This document shows positions 5,027-57,463 of a DNA stretch of 64,000 bases, piece by piece. Both the position numbers and the translations under genes were made by a program. Position 1 is the stretch's first letter. Each line of letters starts with the position of its first letter. The stretch spans positions 1 to 64,000 of the forward strand of contig NZ_SCTC01000021.1 in the NCBI RefSeq assembly GCF_004299445.1. Reading direction: 5' to 3'. The DNA is from Phenylobacterium sp. (lineage in GTDB: Bacteria; Pseudomonadota; Alphaproteobacteria; Caulobacterales; Caulobacteraceae). The notes beneath the pieces were generated by a model, which ran no database searches, was not told where the DNA came from, and saw only the letters and a program-made list of their open reading frames with translations.

Positions 5027-7993
5027 TTAGAACTCCATGTTCGCGCCGACGAAGAAGAACCGGCCGGCGTTGTCGTACTGCGACGAACCGGTGCCCGTGC
5101 CCGCGAAGGTCTCGGGCAGTTGCGGGGGCTTCTTGTTGAACGCGTTCACGACGCCCGCGCGGAGGCGGATATCGTCGTTCAGGCGGTAGGTGGCGCGGAT
5201 GTCGTGACGGAAGTAGTCGCCCGTCTTGAAGGGATCGATGACGCCCGCTTGCTGCGCCTGGTTCGCGATCATGGAGCCGAAGTAGAGAGTGCTCCAGGTG
5301 AACGAGAACTTGTCGTAGGTCCAGCGCAGCGAGGCGTTGCCCTTCCACTCCGGCGTGGCGTTCGTGATGGTGTTCGCGAACTGGGTGTAAGCCTGGGTGG
5401 GCAGCCCTTGCAGGGCCCACTGGTACATCCAGGTGGCGTCGACGCGCATGGCGATCGAGCCATAGTCCTTGCCGAACAGATCTTCGGTCTGGAAGCCGTA
5501 GCTGACCGAGTAGTCCCAGCCCTCGACCTTCACCGACGCCACGTTCTGCTGAACGAGGACGACTTCGAAGATGCCGCCTTGCAGGCCGCCGGTGGTGGCG
5601 CCGGTGCGGTCACGACGAATCTGCTGACAGAACTGGTTCTGCTCGATCGGACGCGACGCGTCGTCATAGCAGAGGGCGCCGAGCAGCGTGTTGATCGGGA
5701 TCGAACCCACCTGGTCGGTGATGTTGTATTTGAAGAAGTCCGCCGAGATCTGCAGGTTCGGCACCCAGCGCGGGTTGATCACGACGCCGTACTGGAAGGT
5801 GTGCGCCTTTTCCGCACCGAGGTCCGGGTTGCCGCCTTGCAGAAGGGCCAGCGAGGGACGGCCCGTGCCGATGTTCGACACGAAGGTCGTCGGGTTGTAG
5901 CCGGGGATCGCCGCCGCGCAGGTGACCCGGCGGGCCGCCTGTTGGGCCGCCGTGGCGGCACGGAAGTTGGCCGAGTCGCAGGGGTCGAGCGCCGTGGTCG
6001 TGAAGTTCCGGCCTTGCGGCGCGAAGAGTTCCACGATGTTCGGCGCGCGGACGGCGGTCGATTCCGTCGCCCGGAAGCGGACGTCCTTCACCGGGGCCCA
6101 GGTGACGTTGACGCGCCACTGATCGGTGCCGCCGATCGTCGAGTAGTCCGACACGCGGCCGGCGGCCTCGACGGTCAGTTCTTCGGCGAACGGCACGTCC
6201 TTCAGGAGCGGGATGCGGACTTCCGCGTAGGCTTCGCGAACGTCGTACTCGCCCTGACGGGTGCCGATGGCGTTGAAGAACAGCGCGCCCGAGGCCGACA
6301 GCGCGTCCTGGACGAACTGGCTCTTTTCCTTGCGGTATTCGCCGCCGAACGCGACGCCCACCGGGCCGGCCGGCAGATCGAACAGGTCGGTGGCGAAGTT
6401 GATGCCGGCGACCGTCTGGCTCAGCTTCTGGTCGGACGAGGCGACGCCGTTGGTCCACAGGATCGCTTCACGGCTGGCGCCGTTGACCAGGTCCCAGGGG
6501 GTGCAGCCGGCGGCGCGGGCGGCCGCGTCGCGGCAGACGACGGCGCCGTTCAGCAGCACCGCATCGGTCGCCTGCTGGACGCGGGCGACGTTCGGCACGT
6601 TGAACGAGATCGTGGTGCCCGTCACTTCCGAGTACTGGACGTAGCTGTCCATGCTCACGTCGCGACCGAAGGTCTGGAACTTGCCTTCGATGCCGCCCGT
6701 GTACTTGACCTGCTCGCGCTCGGCCTTCACGTCACGGCCGCCGAACTCCTGCCAGAACTTGCCGACCTGAGCGGTCGAGCCCTGGGTGAAGGTCTTGCCG
6801 GCGGCGAGCCATTCCGCACGCAGCGCCGCGGCGGTGGCGCCGGCGCCGTTCAGGTAGGCGTTGTCGCCGCGCAGGACGACCGGCATCGTGCCGCCGCCCG
6901 CGGCCGACGAGAACGCCGGCTGGAAGATGCCGTAGCCCGAGCCATGCAGGTACGACAGGTCGACAAAGGCCTTCCAGGTGTCGGTGATCTTGTAGTCGGC
7001 ATAGCCGCGGATCACCTGGCGGTTACTCTTGCCCTGCAGCGTGTTGTACGCCGGGCCCGAGTAGAACAGCGCGGGGTCCTGGCAGTCCGGCTGGACCGTG
7101 GCGGTCGAGCAGGCGGCCGACAGGCGAACCACGTTGGTGGGGTTGCGGGCGTCCAGGGTGACGGAACGCGCGGTGCCCAGGGCGCCGCCGATCAGCTGGA
7201 AGGTCGCGAAGGGCGAGGTGTTGGCGCGCGAAGCCGGGATGATCGGCTGCGGCGTCACGCGGGTGTCGCGACGGATGCCCGGATTACCGAAGCTCCGGTC
7301 ACGCTGCATGATCGTGTCCTGGCTGGCGACTTCACCGCCGATCAGGATGTTCAGCTTGTCGTCGAAGAACTTGGAGCCCCAGTTGAAGCCGGCGCGATAC
7401 TCCTCGCCGTCGCCTTCCTGGGTGACGCCGCCCTGGATGTCGAGTTCCAGGCCGTCCTGTTCCTTCTTCATGATGAAGTTGACGACGCCCGCGATGGCTT
7501 CCGAGCCGTACACGGCCGACACGCCGCCGGCGATCGTCTCGATCCGCTCGACCATCAGCGAGGGGATGGTGTTGAGGTCGACCGCGGGCGAGCTGGCGTC
7601 CGAGAACGGCAGGCGGCGGTTGTCCATCAGCACCAGGGTGCGCGTCGGGCCCAGGCCGCGGATGTCGGCGCGGGTCTGACCGGCGAGGAACAGGGTGCCC
7701 GACGAGTTTTGCGAGTTCGTCGCGGGGTTGATCACCGGTTGATCGAGCAGGAGGTCGCCCAGCGACACCTGGCCCTGCTCGCGGATGGCCTCGGCCGACA
7801 CGACGGCCAGCGGCTGCGGCGAAGAGAAGGTGTCGCGGCGGATCCGCGAACCGGTGACCACGATTTCGCCGACGTCGACCGTCGCTTCACCGGCGGTCTG
7901 AGCTTGGGCGATGGACGGCGCAGCGAGCAGGCTGGCCGAGGCGGCTGACATCAGCAGCGCGCTTCGAAGCATGGTGTTCATCTGGACTTTCAT
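5027..7993 (-). CDS. TonB-dependent outer-membrane receptor
   Basis: A 988-residue TonB-dependent receptor that imports a ligand across the outer membrane using TonB-ExbBD energy. I chose the ATG at 7993 because it begins the signal peptide (MKVQMNTMLRSALLMSAASA, cleavage near AQAQ). Next come a TonB-box-like segment (VGEIVVTGSRI, about residues 40-50), the plug domain (about 50-165, with VERIETIAGGVSAVYGSEAI and a GVVNFIMKK end) and a long beta-barrel ending in a terminal Phe (FFVGANMEF). The VVTGSRIRR start and the long barrel resemble the oligopeptide/carbohydrate-type receptors abundant in Caulobacterales. The substrate cannot be read from the sequence. Two hairpins lie just downstream. 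Confidence 0.95.
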   Translation of the reverse strand: MKVQMNTMLRSALLMSAASASLLAAPSIAQAQTAGEATVDVGEIVVTGSRIRRDTFSSPQPLAVVSAEAIREQGQVSLGDLLLDQPVINPATNSQNSSGTLFLAGQTRADIRGLGPTRTLVLMDNRRLPFSDASSPAVDLNTIPSLMVERIETIAGGVSAVYGSEAIAGVVNFIMKKEQDGLELDIQGGVTQEGDGEEYRAGFNWGSKFFDDKLNILIGGEVASQDTIMQRDRSFGNPGIRRDTRVTPQPIIPASRANTSPFATFQLIGGALGTARSVTLDARNPTNVVRLSAACSTATVQPDCQDPALFYSGPAYNTLQGKSNRQVIRGYADYKITDTWKAFVDLSYLHGSGYGIFQPAFSSAAGGGTMPVVLRGDNAYLNGAGATAAALRAEWLAAGKTFTQGSTAQVGKFWQEFGGRDVKAEREQVKYTGGIEGKFQTFGRDVSMDSYVQYSEVTGTTISFNVPNVARVQQATDAVLLNGAVVCRDAAARAAGCTPWDLVNGASREAILWTNGVASSDQKLSQTVAGINFATDLFDLPAGPVGVAFGGEYRKEKSQFVQDALSASGALFFNAIGTRQGEYDVREAYAEVRIPLLKDVPFAEELTVEAAGRVSDYSTIGGTDQWRVNVTWAPVKDVRFRATESTAVRAPNIVELFAPQGRNFTTTALDPCDSANFRAATAAQQAARRVTCAAAIPGYNPTTFVSNIGTGRPSLALLQGGNPDLGAEKAHTFQYGVVINPRWVPNLQISADFFKYNITDQVGSIPINTLLGALCYDDASRPIEQNQFCQQIRRDRTGATTGGLQGGIFEVVLVQQNVASVKVEGWDYSVSYGFQTEDLFGKDYGSIAMRVDATWMYQWALQGLPTQAYTQFANTITNATPEWKGNASLRWTYDKFSFTWSTLYFGSMIANQAQQAGVIDPFKTGDYFRHDIRATYRLNDDIRLRAGVVNAFNKKPPQLPETFAGTGTGSSQYDNAGRFFFVGANMEF

Positions 7994-8304
7994 TGTTACG
8001 GCCCCCCGGCCTGGGAAACGTTTTTTGCAAGCGCGCCGGGCGGCGCCGACGCTTGTCCCCGACAGCGCGAATTCCTCCTCGCGGCGCCGCGTGAACGACG
8101 ACGAATGAAGGGCTTCGCACCAGAAACGGTGAGCGCGGAAGCTGTCACGCAGGGGTCGGGCGAGCAACGAAAAGGCGTCACACTCGCGACGAGTGGTCGG
8201 GGAATGTTACGGATTTTCCACGATGTGCGGCGAAAGCGCCACACATTGGCCTGAATTCGGCAAGGGTTTGCCCGTAATCGGTAACAAACGCCGAAGCGTT
8301 GCCG
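7994..8304. other. Intergenic region upstream of the receptor; no gene seen
   Basis: About 310 bp that must hold the receptor promoter on the minus strand. I saw no tRNA, no convincing ORF and no clear riboswitch. Near its right end, AACGC (8287-8291), loop CGAA, GCGTT (8296-8300) forms a short tetraloop hairpin followed on the minus strand by a T-containing tail (TGTTACC); it may be a weak terminator for the threonine-aldolase-like gene, whose stop is at 8305. Confidence 0.45.
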
Positions 8305-9315
8305 TCAGACGATCCCGCGGAGGGCTTCCGCCAGTTCCTCGACCGCCGCTTCGGTTGTCGCCCACGAACACATGAACCGCACCGAGCCGTCGAGGAAACG
8401 GTAGACGAACCAGCCGGCCGCGTGCAGCGCCGAGAGCCTCTCCTCGTCCATCTGGACGAAGATCCCGTTGGCCTCGACCGGGTGCAGGATGGGGAACGGC
8501 ATCGCCGCGGCCAGCTTCTTCGCCATGGCGTTGGCGTGGGCCGCGTGGCGGATATACGCGCCGTCTTCCAGCATGCCGATGAAGGGCGCGGCGTAGAACC
8601 GGCCCTTGGACGGCAGCTGGCCCGACTGCTTGAGGCGCGCGTCGAACCGCCGGGTCAGGGACTTGTCGAACAGCACGATGGCCTCGGTGGGCGTCATGCC
8701 GGCCTTGGTGCCGCCGATGACCAGCAGATCGACGCCCAGGGTCCTGATGGCCTTCAGGTCGAATCCGGCCGCCGCCGCATTGGCCAGCCGGGCGCCGTCC
8801 AGGTGAACGCCGTAGCCCATGGCCTTCACCGGATCGATCAGCGCCTTCAGAGTCGCTGCGTCGTACACCGTGCCGTACTCGGTGGAGTTGGTGACCGACA
8901 GCGCCGCCGGCGGCTGCCAGTGCGGCTGGTCGGGGGCGGCGAGGGGGGCGGCGAGGCTCGCGGGGTCGATCCGGCCGGATGCGCCCGGCAGCCCGGCGAT
9001 CCGCAGGCCGTGCCCGAAGAATCCGGGCGCGCCGGTCTCGTCGGTGGCCACGTGGCTGTGTTCGTGCGCCAGCACCGCCTCGAACGGCCGGCACAGGGTG
9101 GCGAGGCAGATGGCGTTGGCCGCCGTGCCCGAGGTCACGAACCGTACGTCGGCGTCGGCGTCCAGCAACGTCCGCACCAGATCAGCGGCCCGCGCGCTGA
9201 CCGTGTCGCTGCCATAGCCGGAGGTGAAGCCGGCCCCATTGGCGGCGATCAGCGCCGCCATCGCTTCAGGCGTGGCGGGGGCGGTGTTGTCGGACGCGAA
9301 ATCGTAGCGGGCCAT
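8305..9315 (-). CDS. Threonine aldolase family (beta-eliminating lyase) PLP enzyme
   Basis: A 336-residue fold-type I PLP enzyme of the low-specificity L-threonine aldolase family, which cleaves L-threonine or allo-threonine to glycine and acetaldehyde. Landmarks are the N-terminal FASDNTAPATPEAM, the SGYGSD substrate region, the cofactor-holding VTSGTAANAICLA, EHSHVATDE, the aspartate in GVHLDGARLANA and the Schiff-base lysine in IGGTKAGM. Length fits the family (about 340). The ATG at 9315 is the only start that retains the N-terminal motif. It stands alone, with no obvious operon partner. Related beta-hydroxyamino-acid aldolases with other substrates cannot be excluded. Confidence 0.9.
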   Translation of the reverse strand: MARYDFASDNTAPATPEAMAALIAANGAGFTSGYGSDTVSARAADLVRTLLDADADVRFVTSGTAANAICLATLCRPFEAVLAHEHSHVATDETGAPGFFGHGLRIAGLPGASGRIDPASLAAPLAAPDQPHWQPPAALSVTNSTEYGTVYDAATLKALIDPVKAMGYGVHLDGARLANAAAAGFDLKAIRTLGVDLLVIGGTKAGMTPTEAIVLFDKSLTRRFDARLKQSGQLPSKGRFYAAPFIGMLEDGAYIRHAAHANAMAKKLAAAMPFPILHPVEANGIFVQMDEERLSALHAAGWFVYRFLDGSVRFMCSWATTEAAVEELAEALRGIV

Positions 9316-48977: not shown

Positions 48978-50924
48978 ATGCGCGTTCTTGGCGTTCTGGC
49001 TGCGCTCGCCGTGGCCTTTGCGGGTGTGTCCGCCATGGCCGCGCCGCTGGCCGCTTATGGCGGCCTGCCGAGCATCGATGCGATCGAGATCTCGCCGGAC
49101 GGCTCGACCCTGGCGGTCATCGTCTCAGACGGAAAGAACCGCGGCATCGTCCTGCGGCCGACGGCGGGCGGACCCCAGAAGACCTATCCTGTCGGCGCCT
49201 CAAAGGTCCGGCGGTTGGACTGGGTGGGGTCGGACCACCTGATCGTCACGACGTCCCAGACCGAGCGACTGATCGGATGGACGGGGGACAAGGGCGAATT
49301 CTCGCTGGGCTACGTGCTCGACGTGAAGGCGCAGAAGGTCTCTCCGCTATTCGAGGAGTCGCTGGAGAAGATGCAGACCGGCACCCACTTCCGTGGCGCC
49401 TCGACGCAGATCACGGATCCTCTGAACATCCTGGCCGGGCCGCCCGAGGTGCGGGTCATCGACGGAAAGCCCACGGTCTTCGTCGAGAAGATCACCTTCA
49501 AGGAAGGTTGGGGCGTGATCACGGTGGTCCGCGCCGACCTGAAGAGCGGTCGCCGCGACATCGTGGAATTCGGCGAGCGGGACACCCGCGCGGTCCTCCT
49601 CGGGCCGGAGGGAACGATCATTGCGCGCTCCGACTACGACGCGAAGTCGGGGCGCTGGGCGCTGAAACTGCGTCAGGGTGGGGGGTGGTTCGATGCGCGG
49701 ACCGCCGTCGCGAAGCTCGACCGACCCTACATGGTCGGGCTGGGCCGTGACGGGACCTCGGTGCTGATCGGCGAACTTGAGGCTGGCGGCTACGTACTTC
49801 GCGAGGTCAGCCCGGATGGCAAAGCCAGCGAGCCGCTCGACGTTCGTAACGGCGACGACGTCATCTTCGACCCTGAGACGCGTCGGCCGATCGGGCTCTA
49901 CGCCCTGGTCGGAGACGAGGGGCGCTACACCTTCTTCGCTGAGCGTGACCAGAAGGTCTGGGCGGCGGTGAAAGCGGCGTTCAAAGGCGATGCGGTCGAC
50001 TTGGCGTCCTGGTCACACGATCGCCAGAAGATCGTCGTGCTCGTCGACTCCGCGGCCGAGGGGCCCGCCTACGCCCTGGTCGACCTGGCGACGCGCAAGG
50101 CCGAATGGCTGGGGCCTCAGTATGAGAAGCTGATGCCCGAGGACCTCTCCAAGGTGCAGCCGGTGCGCTTCAAGGCCCGGGACGGTCTGGACCTCACAGG
50201 CTACCTCACCCTGCCGAACGGCCGCGAGGCCAGGAACCTGCCGCTCGTGGTGCTGGCGCACGGGGGCCCGGAGTCCCGCGACACGCCGGGCTTTGACTGG
50301 TGGTCGCAGGCGATCGCGTCACGAGGCTATGCGGTGCTGCGGGTGAACTATCGCGGGTCGGACGGCTTTGGCCGCGCCTTCGTCGAGGCCGGCTACGGGC
50401 AGTGGGGCCGCAAGATGCAGACCGACCTGTCCGACGGCGCGCGCTATCTCGCGGCCCAGGGGATGATCGATCCGAAGCGCGTCTGTATCGTGGGCGCGAG
50501 CTACGGCGGCTACGCGGCGCTCGCCGGCGCCACGATCGACACGGGCGTGTATCGCTGCGCCGTATCGGTGGCCGGGGTCTCCGACCTGCGTAAGCTGGTC
50601 GAGGACGAAGGGCGCAGCGCCAAGCGCTACTGGAAGCGCTTCATGGGGGTCGAGCGCCTGTCCGATCCGGCCCTCGCCCAAATCTCGCCCATCACGCACG
50701 TGGACAAGGTGTCCATCCCCGTCCTGATGGTCCACGGCCGCGACGACACCGTGGTGCCGCTGGAGCAGAGCGAGATCATGGCGGACGCCCTGCGCAAGGC
50801 CGGCAAGCCGGTCGAGCTGATCGTCCAGAAGGGCGAGGACCACTGGCTCAGCCGCGGCGAGACCCGCAGCGCGATGCTGGAGAGCACCATGGCTTTCGTC
50901 GAAAAGCACAACCCGCCGAATTGA
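48978..50924 (+). CDS. Secreted S9 prolyl oligopeptidase-family peptidase, copy 1
   Basis: A 648-residue exported serine peptidase. Signal peptide MRVLGVLAALAVAFAGVSAM. An N-terminal beta-propeller (about 25-385) has degenerate repeats (SPDGSTLAVIVSDGKNR, FDPETRRPIGLYALVGDEG). The C-terminal alpha/beta hydrolase (about 395-648) contains HGGPESRDTPGFDWW (oxyanion area), the nucleophile Ser508 in GASYGGYAAL, the acidic residue in HGRDDTVVP and His622 in EDHWLSRGE: a complete triad. It is the first of three tandem paralogues, all ending EKHNPPN. It probably hydrolyses peptides in the periplasm. Confidence 0.93.
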   Translation: MRVLGVLAALAVAFAGVSAMAAPLAAYGGLPSIDAIEISPDGSTLAVIVSDGKNRGIVLRPTAGGPQKTYPVGASKVRRLDWVGSDHLIVTTSQTERLIGWTGDKGEFSLGYVLDVKAQKVSPLFEESLEKMQTGTHFRGASTQITDPLNILAGPPEVRVIDGKPTVFVEKITFKEGWGVITVVRADLKSGRRDIVEFGERDTRAVLLGPEGTIIARSDYDAKSGRWALKLRQGGGWFDARTAVAKLDRPYMVGLGRDGTSVLIGELEAGGYVLREVSPDGKASEPLDVRNGDDVIFDPETRRPIGLYALVGDEGRYTFFAERDQKVWAAVKAAFKGDAVDLASWSHDRQKIVVLVDSAAEGPAYALVDLATRKAEWLGPQYEKLMPEDLSKVQPVRFKARDGLDLTGYLTLPNGREARNLPLVVLAHGGPESRDTPGFDWWSQAIASRGYAVLRVNYRGSDGFGRAFVEAGYGQWGRKMQTDLSDGARYLAAQGMIDPKRVCIVGASYGGYAALAGATIDTGVYRCAVSVAGVSDLRKLVEDEGRSAKRYWKRFMGVERLSDPALAQISPITHVDKVSIPVLMVHGRDDTVVPLEQSEIMADALRKAGKPVELIVQKGEDHWLSRGETRSAMLESTMAFVEKHNPPN

Positions 50925-50935
50925 GGATGCCGCTC

Positions 50936-52840
50936 ATGTGGATCGTTGCGCGCCTTGGCGCCCTTGTCCTGATCCTGATCGCCGCGCCTGCGGCGGCGGC
51001 CCCGCTGTCGTCCTACGGCAAGCTGCCGTCGATCGAGGCGGCGACGGTCTCGCCCAGCGGCTCGCTGCTCGCGGTGGTGACCTCCGACGGAGTTAAGCGG
51101 ACGATCGTCGTCCAGGACCTGGCGAAGGGCGCCGTCCTGCTCAGGGGCTTCGTCGGCGCCGAGAAGATACGCAACGTTCAGTGGGCCGGCGATCTGCATC
51201 TGCTCGTGACCACGTCGAAGACGGATACCTCGTTTGTGATCCAGGACGGCCGACGCGAGTGGTTCTTCGGCAATGTGATCGACGTCGCCGGGAAGAAAAT
51301 CCGCCCCCTCATGGGGGCGTCGAAGCAGGCGGATCTTCAAGCGATCCTGGGCGTGCCGGTAGTGCGCGTGGTGGGAGGCAAGCCCTTCATCTTCGCGCGG
51401 GGCGTGATCTTTTCCGGCCCGCGCGGCTACGTCTCGTTGTTTCGGATCGATCCCGTGACCGGGGCGAGCCGTCTGATCGAGCAGGGCGGGGCCGACACGA
51501 TCAACTGGCTTGTCGACGCCGACGGCGAGGTCATGGCGCGCGAGCTCTACAACTCCGGTTCGGGGGAATGGACGCTGCGAATCCGCTCCACGAGCGGCTG
51601 GCGGGATCTCGCCTCGAAGACTGCGCCGCTCGATCGCCCGTATCTGCTGGGCATGGGCCGCACGACGACGTCGGTGCTCTACGCCGACCGGGACGGCGAG
51701 GATCGCTGGGTCTGGAAGGAGGCTCCGCTGGATGGAGGTGCGGTCCGCGAGATTTCGCCGTCCGTGGACAGCCAGGCCACGGTGCGGGCGAGAGACGGCC
51801 GCCTCGTCGGGCAGGTCTCGCTGGTCGGCGATGAACCGCGCTATGTCTTCCACGAGGCCGCCGACGCAGAGGCCTGGAAGCTGGTGACCGACGCCTTCAG
51901 CGGCGCCGTACTCGGCCTGCAGTCCTGGTCGAACGACCGCCAGAAGATCGTGATCTACGTGGACTCGCCGACTGACGGTCCAGCTTACGTGCTCATCGAC
52001 ATGGCCAATCGCGAGGTGACGCGGATCGGGCCCGAGTACGCCGGGATCGAGGCTCGTGACATAGCGTTTCGCACGCCCGTGCGGTTCAAGGCGTCGGATG
52101 GGCTGCCGCTGAGTGGCTACCTCACCGTGCCGCGCGATCGGGCCGCGACGCGTCTGCCCCTCATCGTCTTTCCGCACGGCGGCCCTGAGGCCCGCGACAC
52201 GCCCGGCTTCGATTGGTGGGCCCAGGGCATGGCCTCGCGGGGCTATGCGGTGTTGCAGGTGAACTACAGAGGCTCGGCGGGCCTGGGCCGGCCGCACCTC
52301 GAGGCGGGCTACGGTCAATGGGGTCGCAAGATGCAGACGGACCTCTCCGACGGCGTCCGCCATCTGGTCGGACAGGGAACGGTCGATCCCAAGCGCGTCT
52401 GCATTGTCGGTGCCAGCTACGGCGGCTATGCGGCGCTCGCGGGGGCGACCCTTGACCCGGGAGTCTATCGCTGCGCCGTCGCCGTCTCCGGGCTCTCCGA
52501 CCTTCGGCGACTCGCCGAAAGCGAAGATCCGGGGGCGCGCCGCTACTGGAAGCGCTTCATGGGCGTCACATCGCTGAATGATCCGGCGCTGTCGCAAATC
52601 TCGCCCATCACGCACGTGGACAAGGTGTCCATACCCATCCTGATGATCCATGGCCGTGACGACACGGTGGTGCCGCTGGAGCAGAGCGAGATCATGGCGG
52701 ACGCTCTGCGCAAGGCCGGCAAGCCGGTCGAGCTGATCGTCCAGAAGGGCGAGGACCACTGGCTCAGCCGCGGCGAGACCCGCGGCGCGACGCTGGAGGC
52801 CACCATGGCCTTCGTCGAGAAACACAACCCGCCGAACTGA
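50936..52840 (+). CDS. Secreted S9 prolyl oligopeptidase-family peptidase, copy 2
   Basis: A 634-residue paralogue of the previous gene, 11 bp downstream. I chose the ATG at 50936 (GAGG about 9 nt upstream) which starts the signal peptide MWIVARLGALVLILIAAPAA; 50927 is an alternative. The same propeller-plus-hydrolase layout. The triad is complete: Ser494 (GASYGGYAAL), acidic residue in HGRDDTVVP, His608 (EDHWLSRGE). Its last 250 bp are almost identical to those of copy 1 while the propeller has diverged widely. Together with copies 1 and 3 it forms one operon. Confidence 0.93.
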   Translation: MWIVARLGALVLILIAAPAAAAPLSSYGKLPSIEAATVSPSGSLLAVVTSDGVKRTIVVQDLAKGAVLLRGFVGAEKIRNVQWAGDLHLLVTTSKTDTSFVIQDGRREWFFGNVIDVAGKKIRPLMGASKQADLQAILGVPVVRVVGGKPFIFARGVIFSGPRGYVSLFRIDPVTGASRLIEQGGADTINWLVDADGEVMARELYNSGSGEWTLRIRSTSGWRDLASKTAPLDRPYLLGMGRTTTSVLYADRDGEDRWVWKEAPLDGGAVREISPSVDSQATVRARDGRLVGQVSLVGDEPRYVFHEAADAEAWKLVTDAFSGAVLGLQSWSNDRQKIVIYVDSPTDGPAYVLIDMANREVTRIGPEYAGIEARDIAFRTPVRFKASDGLPLSGYLTVPRDRAATRLPLIVFPHGGPEARDTPGFDWWAQGMASRGYAVLQVNYRGSAGLGRPHLEAGYGQWGRKMQTDLSDGVRHLVGQGTVDPKRVCIVGASYGGYAALAGATLDPGVYRCAVAVSGLSDLRRLAESEDPGARRYWKRFMGVTSLNDPALSQISPITHVDKVSIPILMIHGRDDTVVPLEQSEIMADALRKAGKPVELIVQKGEDHWLSRGETRGATLEATMAFVEKHNPPN

Positions 52841-52847
52841 GGACCGG

Positions 52848-54770
52848 ATGAAGTCACTCGTTGCGCGCCTTGCGGCGGTGTGGATTGCCGGAATGGCGTG
52901 GCCGGGGTGGGCAGCGCCCCTCGAAGCCTACACCCAGCCGCCGGCGATCCATGCCGCCACGCTGTCTCCCAGCGGGCGGCAGATCGCTTTGATGATCCAC
53001 CTGGACGGGGAGACCTCGCTCGTTGTTCAGGATGCGACGAGCAAGGCGCTGATCGCGCGGGCCAGTTTTGGCAAGATCCCGACGACCTCGGCTCGATGGG
53101 TCGGCGAACGTGGGCTTCTCGTAACCACACAGGTTGACCACGATCCTGCCGCCGCGAAGGGCGGGGCGATGAGTTGGCGCCGCGTGCATTTCTTCGATGT
53201 CGCGGCATCGAGACTGACGCCGCTGCACTCGAACGCTGAAAGCGGGATGAACAACATCGTCGGCGCTCCGATGATCCGCGTCGTCGATGGCGAGCCAGCC
53301 GTGTTTCTCGAGGCCTTCGAGTTCATCGACCAGCGTGGCAGTGTCGCCCTGTTTCGCGCGGACCTCGACACCGGCAAGACGAGTCCTGTGGCGCACGCCG
53401 AACAGGGTGTGCGGCGTTGGATCGTAGACGCCTCGGGGAAGCCGGCGGCTCAGGAGGTGTTCGTCGATCGAACGCGGCAAACCAGCATCAAGGTGAAGAC
53501 GGTGGAGGGGTGGCGGACAGCCTATTCGAGCGCTCCAACCGAGAGCGTTAGGCTGGTGAGCCTGAGCGCGGACGGGCGCGGCGTGGTCTACTCCGTAAGG
53601 CGTCCGAATGGTCTCGACGAATGGCGCGAGGCGCGGCTGGACGGTTCACTCGACAAACCGCCGGTCGTGGCCGCGGACGGCCAGGTTCCGTTGACGGACC
53701 CCCAGACCGGTCAACTGATTGGCCACTACGTTATGGACGGGGATGCCGAGCGCTACAGCTACCTCGACAAAGCGTATGAGCAAGTCATTGCAGAGGTTAC
53801 CTCGGCCTTCGAGGCTGTGACCGTCGAGGTCAAGTCATGGTCAGCGGATCGTCGCGCCGTGATCGCGTGGGTCGACAGGCCGCGCGAGAGCCCGGGCTAC
53901 GCCCTGGTTGATGTGGCCGCACGGAAGGCGTCCTGGATCGCGTCGATGTACCCTGGCCTGTCCACGGCCGACGTCGGGCTCAAGACACGCGTGCGCTTCA
54001 AGGCGACAGATGGACTTGAGCTTGTAGGATATCTTACGCGCCCGCCTGGGAGTGAGCACCGGAAGAACCTGCCTCTGATCGTTCTGCCTCACGACGGGCC
54101 CTGGGGGCGCGACACGGTTGACTTCGATTGGTGGGCGCAGGCCATGGCGTCTCGCGGGTACGCCGTCTTGCAGTTGAACTATCGCGGATCGGACGGCTTC
54201 GGGGACGCATTGCGCGAGGCCGGGCGGGGCCAATGGGGCCGCAAGATGCAGACAGACCTTTCCGACGGGGTGGGCGCGCTCGCTTCTGGCGGGCTCATTG
54301 ACCCGAAGCGGGTCTGTATCGTTGGCGAAGGGTACGGCGGCTACGCCGCATTGGCGGGCGCGACGATCAATCCCGGCGTCTATCGCTGCGCCGTGTCGGT
54401 CGACGGTGTTTCTGACCTCGCCAAGCAGATTGCCTACGCCAAGACGAGTGTCGGTGGGCGGCCGCTGACCCTGCTGAACTACTACATTGGACGCGAGGTG
54501 GTTGATGATCCCAGCCAACTCGCTGCGCTGTCCCCCGTGCGGCGGGCGGAACAAGCCGACGTTCCCATATTGCTGCTCCACAATTCCAAGGATCGCGAGG
54601 TCGCGTCCTCACAGAGCCAGGCCATGGCCGACGCTTTGCGTCGGGCCGGGAAAGAGGTGGAACTTGTGCTTCTGCCCGGAGATGGAGACTGGCAGGACCG
54701 CGCCGACGCTCGCCACTACGTCGTGGCCGCCACCATGGCCTTCCTCGAGAAGCACAACCCGCCGAATTGA
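52848..54770 (+). CDS. S9 peptidase paralogue, copy 3: probable pseudoenzyme
   Basis: A 640-residue third paralogue, 7 bp after copy 2, with signal peptide MKSLVARLAAVWIAGMAWPG, then WAA. The fold is kept (propeller, then PHDGPWGRDTVDFDWWAQAM, CIVGEGYGGYAALAGA, EKHNPPN end) and the frame is intact. The nucleophile Ser is Gly495 (GEGYGGY for GASYGGY), the catalytic His is Asp614 (GDGDWQD for GEDHWLS), and the oxyanion HGGP has become HDGP. Two of three triad members are therefore lost, so it is probably inactive as a peptidase and may act as a binding or regulatory partner. It appears richer in A/T-ending codons than copies 1 and 2. Confidence 0.9.
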   Translation: MKSLVARLAAVWIAGMAWPGWAAPLEAYTQPPAIHAATLSPSGRQIALMIHLDGETSLVVQDATSKALIARASFGKIPTTSARWVGERGLLVTTQVDHDPAAAKGGAMSWRRVHFFDVAASRLTPLHSNAESGMNNIVGAPMIRVVDGEPAVFLEAFEFIDQRGSVALFRADLDTGKTSPVAHAEQGVRRWIVDASGKPAAQEVFVDRTRQTSIKVKTVEGWRTAYSSAPTESVRLVSLSADGRGVVYSVRRPNGLDEWREARLDGSLDKPPVVAADGQVPLTDPQTGQLIGHYVMDGDAERYSYLDKAYEQVIAEVTSAFEAVTVEVKSWSADRRAVIAWVDRPRESPGYALVDVAARKASWIASMYPGLSTADVGLKTRVRFKATDGLELVGYLTRPPGSEHRKNLPLIVLPHDGPWGRDTVDFDWWAQAMASRGYAVLQLNYRGSDGFGDALREAGRGQWGRKMQTDLSDGVGALASGGLIDPKRVCIVGEGYGGYAALAGATINPGVYRCAVSVDGVSDLAKQIAYAKTSVGGRPLTLLNYYIGREVVDDPSQLAALSPVRRAEQADVPILLLHNSKDREVASSQSQAMADALRRAGKEVELVLLPGDGDWQDRADARHYVVAATMAFLEKHNPPN

Positions 54771-54877: not shown

Positions 54878-57463
<2,586 letters not shown>

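Follow-up and report, generated by a model that had tools for sequence, protein, structure and literature searches.

A tandem S9 peptidase array of Phenylobacterium very probably maintains a catalytically dead copy behind active-type paralogues

Pseudoenzymes of the S9 peptidase family that have been described include the animal S9B proteins DPP6 and DPP10, which are subunits of Kv4 channels (PMC4350108, PMC4873792). Both keep the S9 arrangement of a propeller and a hydrolase domain, have the nucleophile replaced (by Asp in DPP6 and by Gly in DPP10), and serve a non-catalytic role with partner proteins. One further S9 pseudoenzyme, of the BEM46-like type, has been described in Trypanosoma brucei (PMC4376731). 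In bacteria, active and degenerate protease paralogues have been paired after gene duplication more than once in magnetotactic species, as MamE/MamO and MamE1/MamE2; MamO is non-catalytic and promotes the activity of MamE, and the paper on them reports that no physical interaction with MamE was detected (PMC4794232). In Clostridioides difficile, the active CspB and the pseudoproteases CspA and CspC take part in one process, and two triad residues are changed in the dead copies (PMC6636752). A survey of prokaryotic prolyl oligopeptidases describes the catalytic triad as highly conserved in all subtypes, and the word 'inactive' is absent from its main text (PMC4522959). Among the matches listed in the open-licence PMC literature, no bacterial S9 pseudoenzyme was found. 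An earlier note on the locus treated here knew of no described system of two active and one dead exported S9 peptidases; this stands for bacterial S9 proteins among the matches listed, but active and dead paralogues have been described in other bacterial protease families. Hence the combination is of a known kind, of which the bacterial S9 case would be a variant.

The window, by which we mean the whole stretch of 64,000 nucleotides of Phenylobacterium sp. that was analysed, carries three S9 reading frames in tandem, followed by clpB:

48978..50924, + strand: copy 1, exported-type S9 peptidase, Ser/Asp/His intact (PF00326, E 2.9e-49)
50921..52840, + strand: copy 2, exported-type S9 peptidase, Ser/Asp/His intact (alternative starts TTG 50921 and ATG 50927)
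52848..54770, + strand: copy 3, putative S9 pseudoenzyme (PF00326, E 1.4e-38; AGGA before the ATG)
54093..54095, + strand: codon 416 of copy 3, GAC (Asp), with the Gly of HGGP replaced
54330..54332, + strand: codon 495 of copy 3, GGG (Gly), with the nucleophile Ser replaced
54591..54593, + strand: codon 582 of copy 3, GAT (Asp), catalytic Asp kept
54687..54689, + strand: codon 614 of copy 3, GAC (Asp), with the catalytic His replaced
54878..57463, + strand: clpB, syntenic landmark downstream of the S9 array

The motifs HGGP (the oxyanion motif), GASYGGY and GEDHW of copies 1 and 2 correspond to HDGP, GEGYGGY and GDGDW in copy 3; the catalytic-Asp motif of copies 1 and 2 is HGRDD. These codons and translations agree with the motif losses in copy 3, and with the intact Ser and His motifs in the other two copies, that the earlier note had reported. 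The same note took the frame, the signal peptide and the C-terminal end of copy 3 to be intact: the frame is indeed stop-free over 640 amino acids and its translation ends in EKHNPPN, and the resemblance of the N-terminus to a signal peptide is a judgement by eye. Compared with an active S9 peptidase, copy 3 thus lacks Ser and His and has retained Asp (Asp582). This is not the DPP10 pattern, in which the nucleophile is replaced and His and Asp are kept, because His has been lost too.

If TTG 50921 is the start of copy 2, that copy shares 4 bases with the end of copy 1; gaps of 7 and 107 bases separate copy 2 from copy 3 and copy 3 from clpB, respectively. A promoter scan at the S9 array gave zero matches, and the number of terminator-like matches there was 3, against 2.4 expected; the basis for a putative S9 operon is the gene spacing. 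Copies 1 and 2 are the best-scoring paralogues of copy 3 in the genome, with 41-43% identity.

All three copies clearly exceed the gathering score of the Pfam Peptidase_S9 profile (PF00326), copy 3 with 133.0 bits against 22.6. An AlphaFold model of copy 3 built with 44 sequences has a mean pLDDT of 90.2 and a pTM of 0.89, and its best Foldseek matches in the PDB are S9 enzymes, with TM values of ~0.65-0.75 to 7c72, 5l8s and 8wt1. Copy 3 is thus predicted to keep the S9 fold of a propeller and an alpha/beta-hydrolase domain. The nearest solved structures (7c72 and 3azo, puromycin hydrolases; 5l8s, acylaminoacyl peptidase; 8wt1, carboxypeptidase) are like copy 3 in fold and hydrolase domain; all are titled as enzymes, and identity to copy 3 over the aligned fold is 16-20%. 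Lasso-peptide isopeptidases of the Atxe2 type, which are exported S9 proteins, occur in Caulobacteraceae. Copies 1, 2 and 3 are not members of this group, as their scores of 86.1, 70.1 and 74.2 bits against NF033523 (Atxe2 type) fall below the cut-off of 400, and in searches of solved structures, which gave 86 matches for copy 3 and 133 for copy 2, the 60 listed for each include none named as a lasso-peptide isopeptidase. A part in anti-phage defence was likewise set aside, since none of the three copies had a PADLOC match up to E 0.01.

Orthologues were sought in an alignment set made up of the window and 40 regions, 36 of the same genus and 4 of other genera; the same-genus regions had been picked by their match to copy 3 and are not a random sample. 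Of its 66 S9 frames and fragments, 60 span the Ser and His positions (6 fragments do not), and 55 of these 60 have Ser/Asp/His. The other five are copy 3 of the window, L053, L054, L059 and the gene of L086 (G215), which represents a separate loss of Ser. The first four, here called the dead clade, are monophyletic with support of 100/100 in an IQ-TREE C20 tree of 57 rows, and again with 100 in a tree of 29 rows. A private mutation, which the earlier note had named as the finding that would speak against it, is not borne out, as the three further orthologues also lack Ser and His; with the orthologue present in four assemblies, an assembly error is ruled out together with it.

Within the dead clade (in the order window copy 3, L053 (G006), L054 (G169), L059 (G171)), position 495 is G, G, G, A and position 614 is D, R, W, K, where the W of L054 becomes D if a gap is allowed. 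Ser and His are therefore absent from all four members. The catalytic Asp at position 582 (D, D, D, A) is kept in three and lost in L059. Gly495 and Asp614, singled out in the earlier note, are consequently not conserved as such; all four members instead share the lack of Ser and His and the change of Gly416 to Asp. Because positions 416, 495 and 614 are invariant in the active copies (39 of 39 aligned), the changes in copy 3 exceed drift at a variable site.

The losses extend beyond the triad. When the 132 positions that are at least 95% conserved in the 39 active copies are considered, 86 are kept in all four dead copies and 12 in none of them, namely K78, R80, E109, F305, W314, G416, S495, Y542, W543, F546, H614 and G619. 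Apart from S495, H614 and G416, the Gly of the oxyanion motif, three of these (Y542, W543, F546) form an aromatic patch 47-51 residues past the nucleophile, a region that we take to be the location of the S1 pocket in S9 enzymes, and five (K78, R80, E109, F305, W314) lie in the propeller part, defined by our own division as the part before position 380. Because the patch and these five propeller residues are lost, binding of the ancestral peptide substrate, which would be one form of the peptide binding suggested earlier for copy 3, is less likely. Across the dead clade, 403 of 508 conserved cells are retained in the hydrolase part versus 119 of 180 in the propeller part. Also retained are G493, G497, G498 and Y499, which belong to the elbow at the lost Ser, and the C-terminal KHNPPN. 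Moreover, 19 residues that are rare (<15%) in active copies are fixed in the four dead copies, for example Asp416, Ala619, Pro78 and Tyr305.

Selection was estimated with GY codon models over 608-622 aligned codons, in which the alternative of omega = 1 was run with kappa fixed at 2. Omega is 0.063 for the dead genes (n=4), 0.051 for the active copies of the same species (n=4) and 0.053 for the copy-1 genes (n=5), and fixing omega at 1 costs 433, 451 and 738 log-likelihood units, respectively. Of the six pairs of dead genes, three are saturated at fourfold sites and the other three lie 0.06-0.10 above saturation; for the window and L053, for example, fourfold identity is 0.360 observed and 0.354 expected. 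This degree of saturation makes the absolute values of omega rough but leaves the conclusion of purifying selection unaffected. The proteins of the dead clade are 46-55% identical. Between the hosts, clpB has a fourfold identity of 0.67-0.72, which by our arithmetic corresponds to at least ~0.2 changes per site per lineage, and in a neutral simulation that included substitutions only, 0 of 200 frames stayed open from 0.2 substitutions per site upwards. A decaying pseudogene is rejected on account of omega, the retained conserved positions and the breakage of frames in the neutral simulation, and the suggestion of the earlier note that copy 3 is kept, with dN/dS below 1, agrees with these results. 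Copy 3 is very probably a maintained, catalytically dead pseudoenzyme.

The dead gene is present in four of 101 Phenylobacterium genomes, as judged with a profile built from those four; its members score 1124-1163 bits and the next protein in the 101 genomes scores 787, and only this gap is informative. With the same profile, a sample of 398 genomes from the order yielded no fifth member (best other protein, 757 bits). Three of the four hosts are metagenome assemblies (titled MAG). In a 35-row tree of five proteins, the carriers are scattered among non-carrier relatives through a subclade whose inner branches often have weak support. In the C20 tree the dead clade evolves faster, with a stem of ~0.55 changes per site and tips that are long too. 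As for decayed remnants of the dead gene in species that lack it, no tblastn match (E up to 1e-3) in the window and the 40 regions lay mostly outside known S9 frames. In our view, these observations are best accounted for by a single old origin followed by repeated loss; transfer between species is also possible. Because its carriers are so few and scattered, the dead gene is dispensable or often lost.

In 34 of the 36 same-genus regions, clpB is flanked by one to three S9 genes or pieces of them. The distance from the end of the closest S9 frame to the clpB frame was taken in 35 rows, one of which is the window; it is at most 450 bases in 23 of them and 0.7-5.4 kb in the other 12. A gene for an outer-membrane channel of the FadL/OmpP1 type stands between the S9 array and clpB in L057 and L087 (Pfam-tested), and one of the FadL type was recognized by eye at this place in L064, L072 and L079; an M20 peptidase gene occupies the gap in L084; and in L056 (G170) other genes come after the S9 array. 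In L061, L063, L076, L079 and L088, the S9 copies upstream of clpB are broken or fragmentary, with internal stops and split frames, some of which may be assembly faults. The array thus gives the impression of a place where genes arise and decay.

The dead gene of each of the four hosts lies directly downstream of an active-type S9 gene and in the same direction, at distances of about 7, 69, 3 and 5 bases as counted from the coordinates. The number of active-type copies is two in the window and in L059 and one in the other two hosts. The unit of two active copies and one dead copy that the earlier note described is thus conserved in only two of the four, but at least one active-type copy accompanies the dead one in each.

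Separate losses are seen in other S9 arrays. In a wider set of 173 distinct S9 frames, 154 span both sites (some of them are one gene cut twice) and 146 of these have Ser/Asp/His; the remaining 8 frames represent 7 genes, which are the four dead-clade members, L086, L119 9903-11867 and L146. The Phenylobacterium gene of L086 (7369-9447, - strand) has Asp in place of Ser (GEDYGGY) and reads HPGP, with His and Asp kept; a gene that looks M20-like by eye lies directly upstream, and one that looks sulfatase-like by eye lies ~1.8 kb downstream. It was joined to the dead clade by FastTree (SH-like 97) but not by the C20 tree, its branch is long, and its membership was rejected by an AU test (p 0.0009, 29 rows). 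On the strength of the AU test and the C20 tree it is not regarded as kin of the dead clade and is counted as a separate loss. The frame L119 9903-11867, from the Alphaproteobacteria MAG ULC179bin3, is a full-length S9 frame with the motif GEDTKAH, in which HGGP and each of the three triad residues have been lost. It adjoins an active-type copy (L119 7857-9860), was placed by FastTree only, on a long branch, and is apparently another, separate pseudoenzyme. In the S9 gene of Asticcacaulis solisilvae (L146 5935-7893), one extra residue in the nucleophile elbow gives GWSAYGGY; since the Ser is one residue away, this gene was counted as ambiguous and not as a loss.

The pattern of residues in copy 3 fits a protein in which the ancestral chemistry would have been given up and the shell kept. 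Because every host has the dead gene close behind an active-type gene and on the same strand, the two are likely to be co-expressed. These two points together lead us to favour, tentatively and at a level a little short of probable, a role of copy 3 as a non-catalytic partner or regulator that acts on or with its active paralogue. Copy 3 would be exported together with the active neighbour and would be unable to hydrolyse peptides itself. It might then use surfaces retained from the ancestral protein to associate with the active S9 enzyme encoded next to it, or compete for a partner of that enzyme, and might thereby set the activity, stability or localisation of the active enzyme. Analogues would be MamO, which promotes the activity of MamE without catalysis, and CspA and CspC, which work with CspB. 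Several observations count against this role: the carriers are few and scattered, the dead clade evolves faster, its propeller part is less well retained than its hydrolase part, and in the analogous case of MamO no physical interaction with MamE was detected and activation requires an extra domain.

An unlikely but serious alternative is that copy 3 is a binding protein in its own right, an S9 shell re-tooled for the uptake, sensing or sequestration of a periplasmic peptide or ligand, for which an active copy would be unneeded. The predicted retention of the propeller and hydrolase shell is compatible with such a function, as is the fact that residues of the pocket type are altered and the whole fold is not lost. 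In L054 (G169), moreover, the dead S9 gene is separated from clpB by a gene for a TonB-dependent receptor (6320-8788, + strand), and the receptor gene and the dead gene are convergent. However, this neighbour is found in only one of the four hosts, the aromatic patch and the five propeller residues are changed in all four, and positions 495 and 614 vary within the clade. A competition without contact is rather improbable: copy 3 would act as a decoy or through dosage, drawing on an export route, a substrate or an inhibitor that it shares with the active copies. The close placement of the dead gene behind an active-type copy in every host would suit this as well, but a decoy for substrate is hard to reconcile with the changed pocket-type residues.

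We consider it very unlikely that copy 3 is a repurposed enzyme which, with the old triad gone, catalyses another reaction at the old site or elsewhere. The 19 newly fixed residues common to the four dead copies would suit such an enzyme, but the residues at the former nucleophile and His positions differ among the clade members, and L059 has lost the Asp as well. That copy 3 is a redundant duplicate which is drifting towards loss and has stayed intact by luck is barely credible and already largely refuted, for although its presence is patchy and tandem S9 copies decay in five other arrays (some perhaps through assembly faults), four frames are intact at large synonymous divergence, omega is low, most of the conserved positions are kept and simulated neutral frames break.

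The favoured role as a partner of the active paralogue can be set beside the known systems. As in the MamE/MamO and Csp cases, a dead paralogue stands beside an active-type one in several species, here in four of four hosts. The systems also differ. MamE and MamO are trypsin-like proteins of the HtrA kind, and MamO has a metal site and an extra, transporter-like domain that is required for activation (PMC4794232). The Csp proteins are subtilisin-like spore proteins, and CspB is produced fused to CspA (PMC6636752). DPP6 and DPP10 are animal proteins anchored in the membrane, with a channel as partner instead of the product of a neighbouring gene, and DPP10 keeps His and Asp, whereas copy 3 has lost Ser, His and other conserved residues and is encoded beside active-type paralogues.

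For annotation, copy 3 is a warning, because it passes the S9 profile and would be named a peptidase. In the papers cited here, the S9 pseudoenzymes whose role is known serve as channel subunits in animals (PMC4350108, PMC4873792); copy 3, with its active-type sisters and kept across species, offers a genetically simple system for studying the function of a dead peptidase and for following the dismantling of active sites after tandem duplication. It is possible, if doubtful, that the exported S9 proteins of Phenylobacterium form mixed complexes of active and dead members, in which the dead paralogue, lacking the catalytic residues and with its oxyanion motif altered, would regulate the active enzyme as a subunit, by gating or targeting it. 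If so, such complexes would be a bacterial counterpart, independently reached, of the DPP6/DPP10 solution, and tandem S9 arrays, with the further losses in G215 and ULC179bin3, would be a recurrent source of regulatory subunits.
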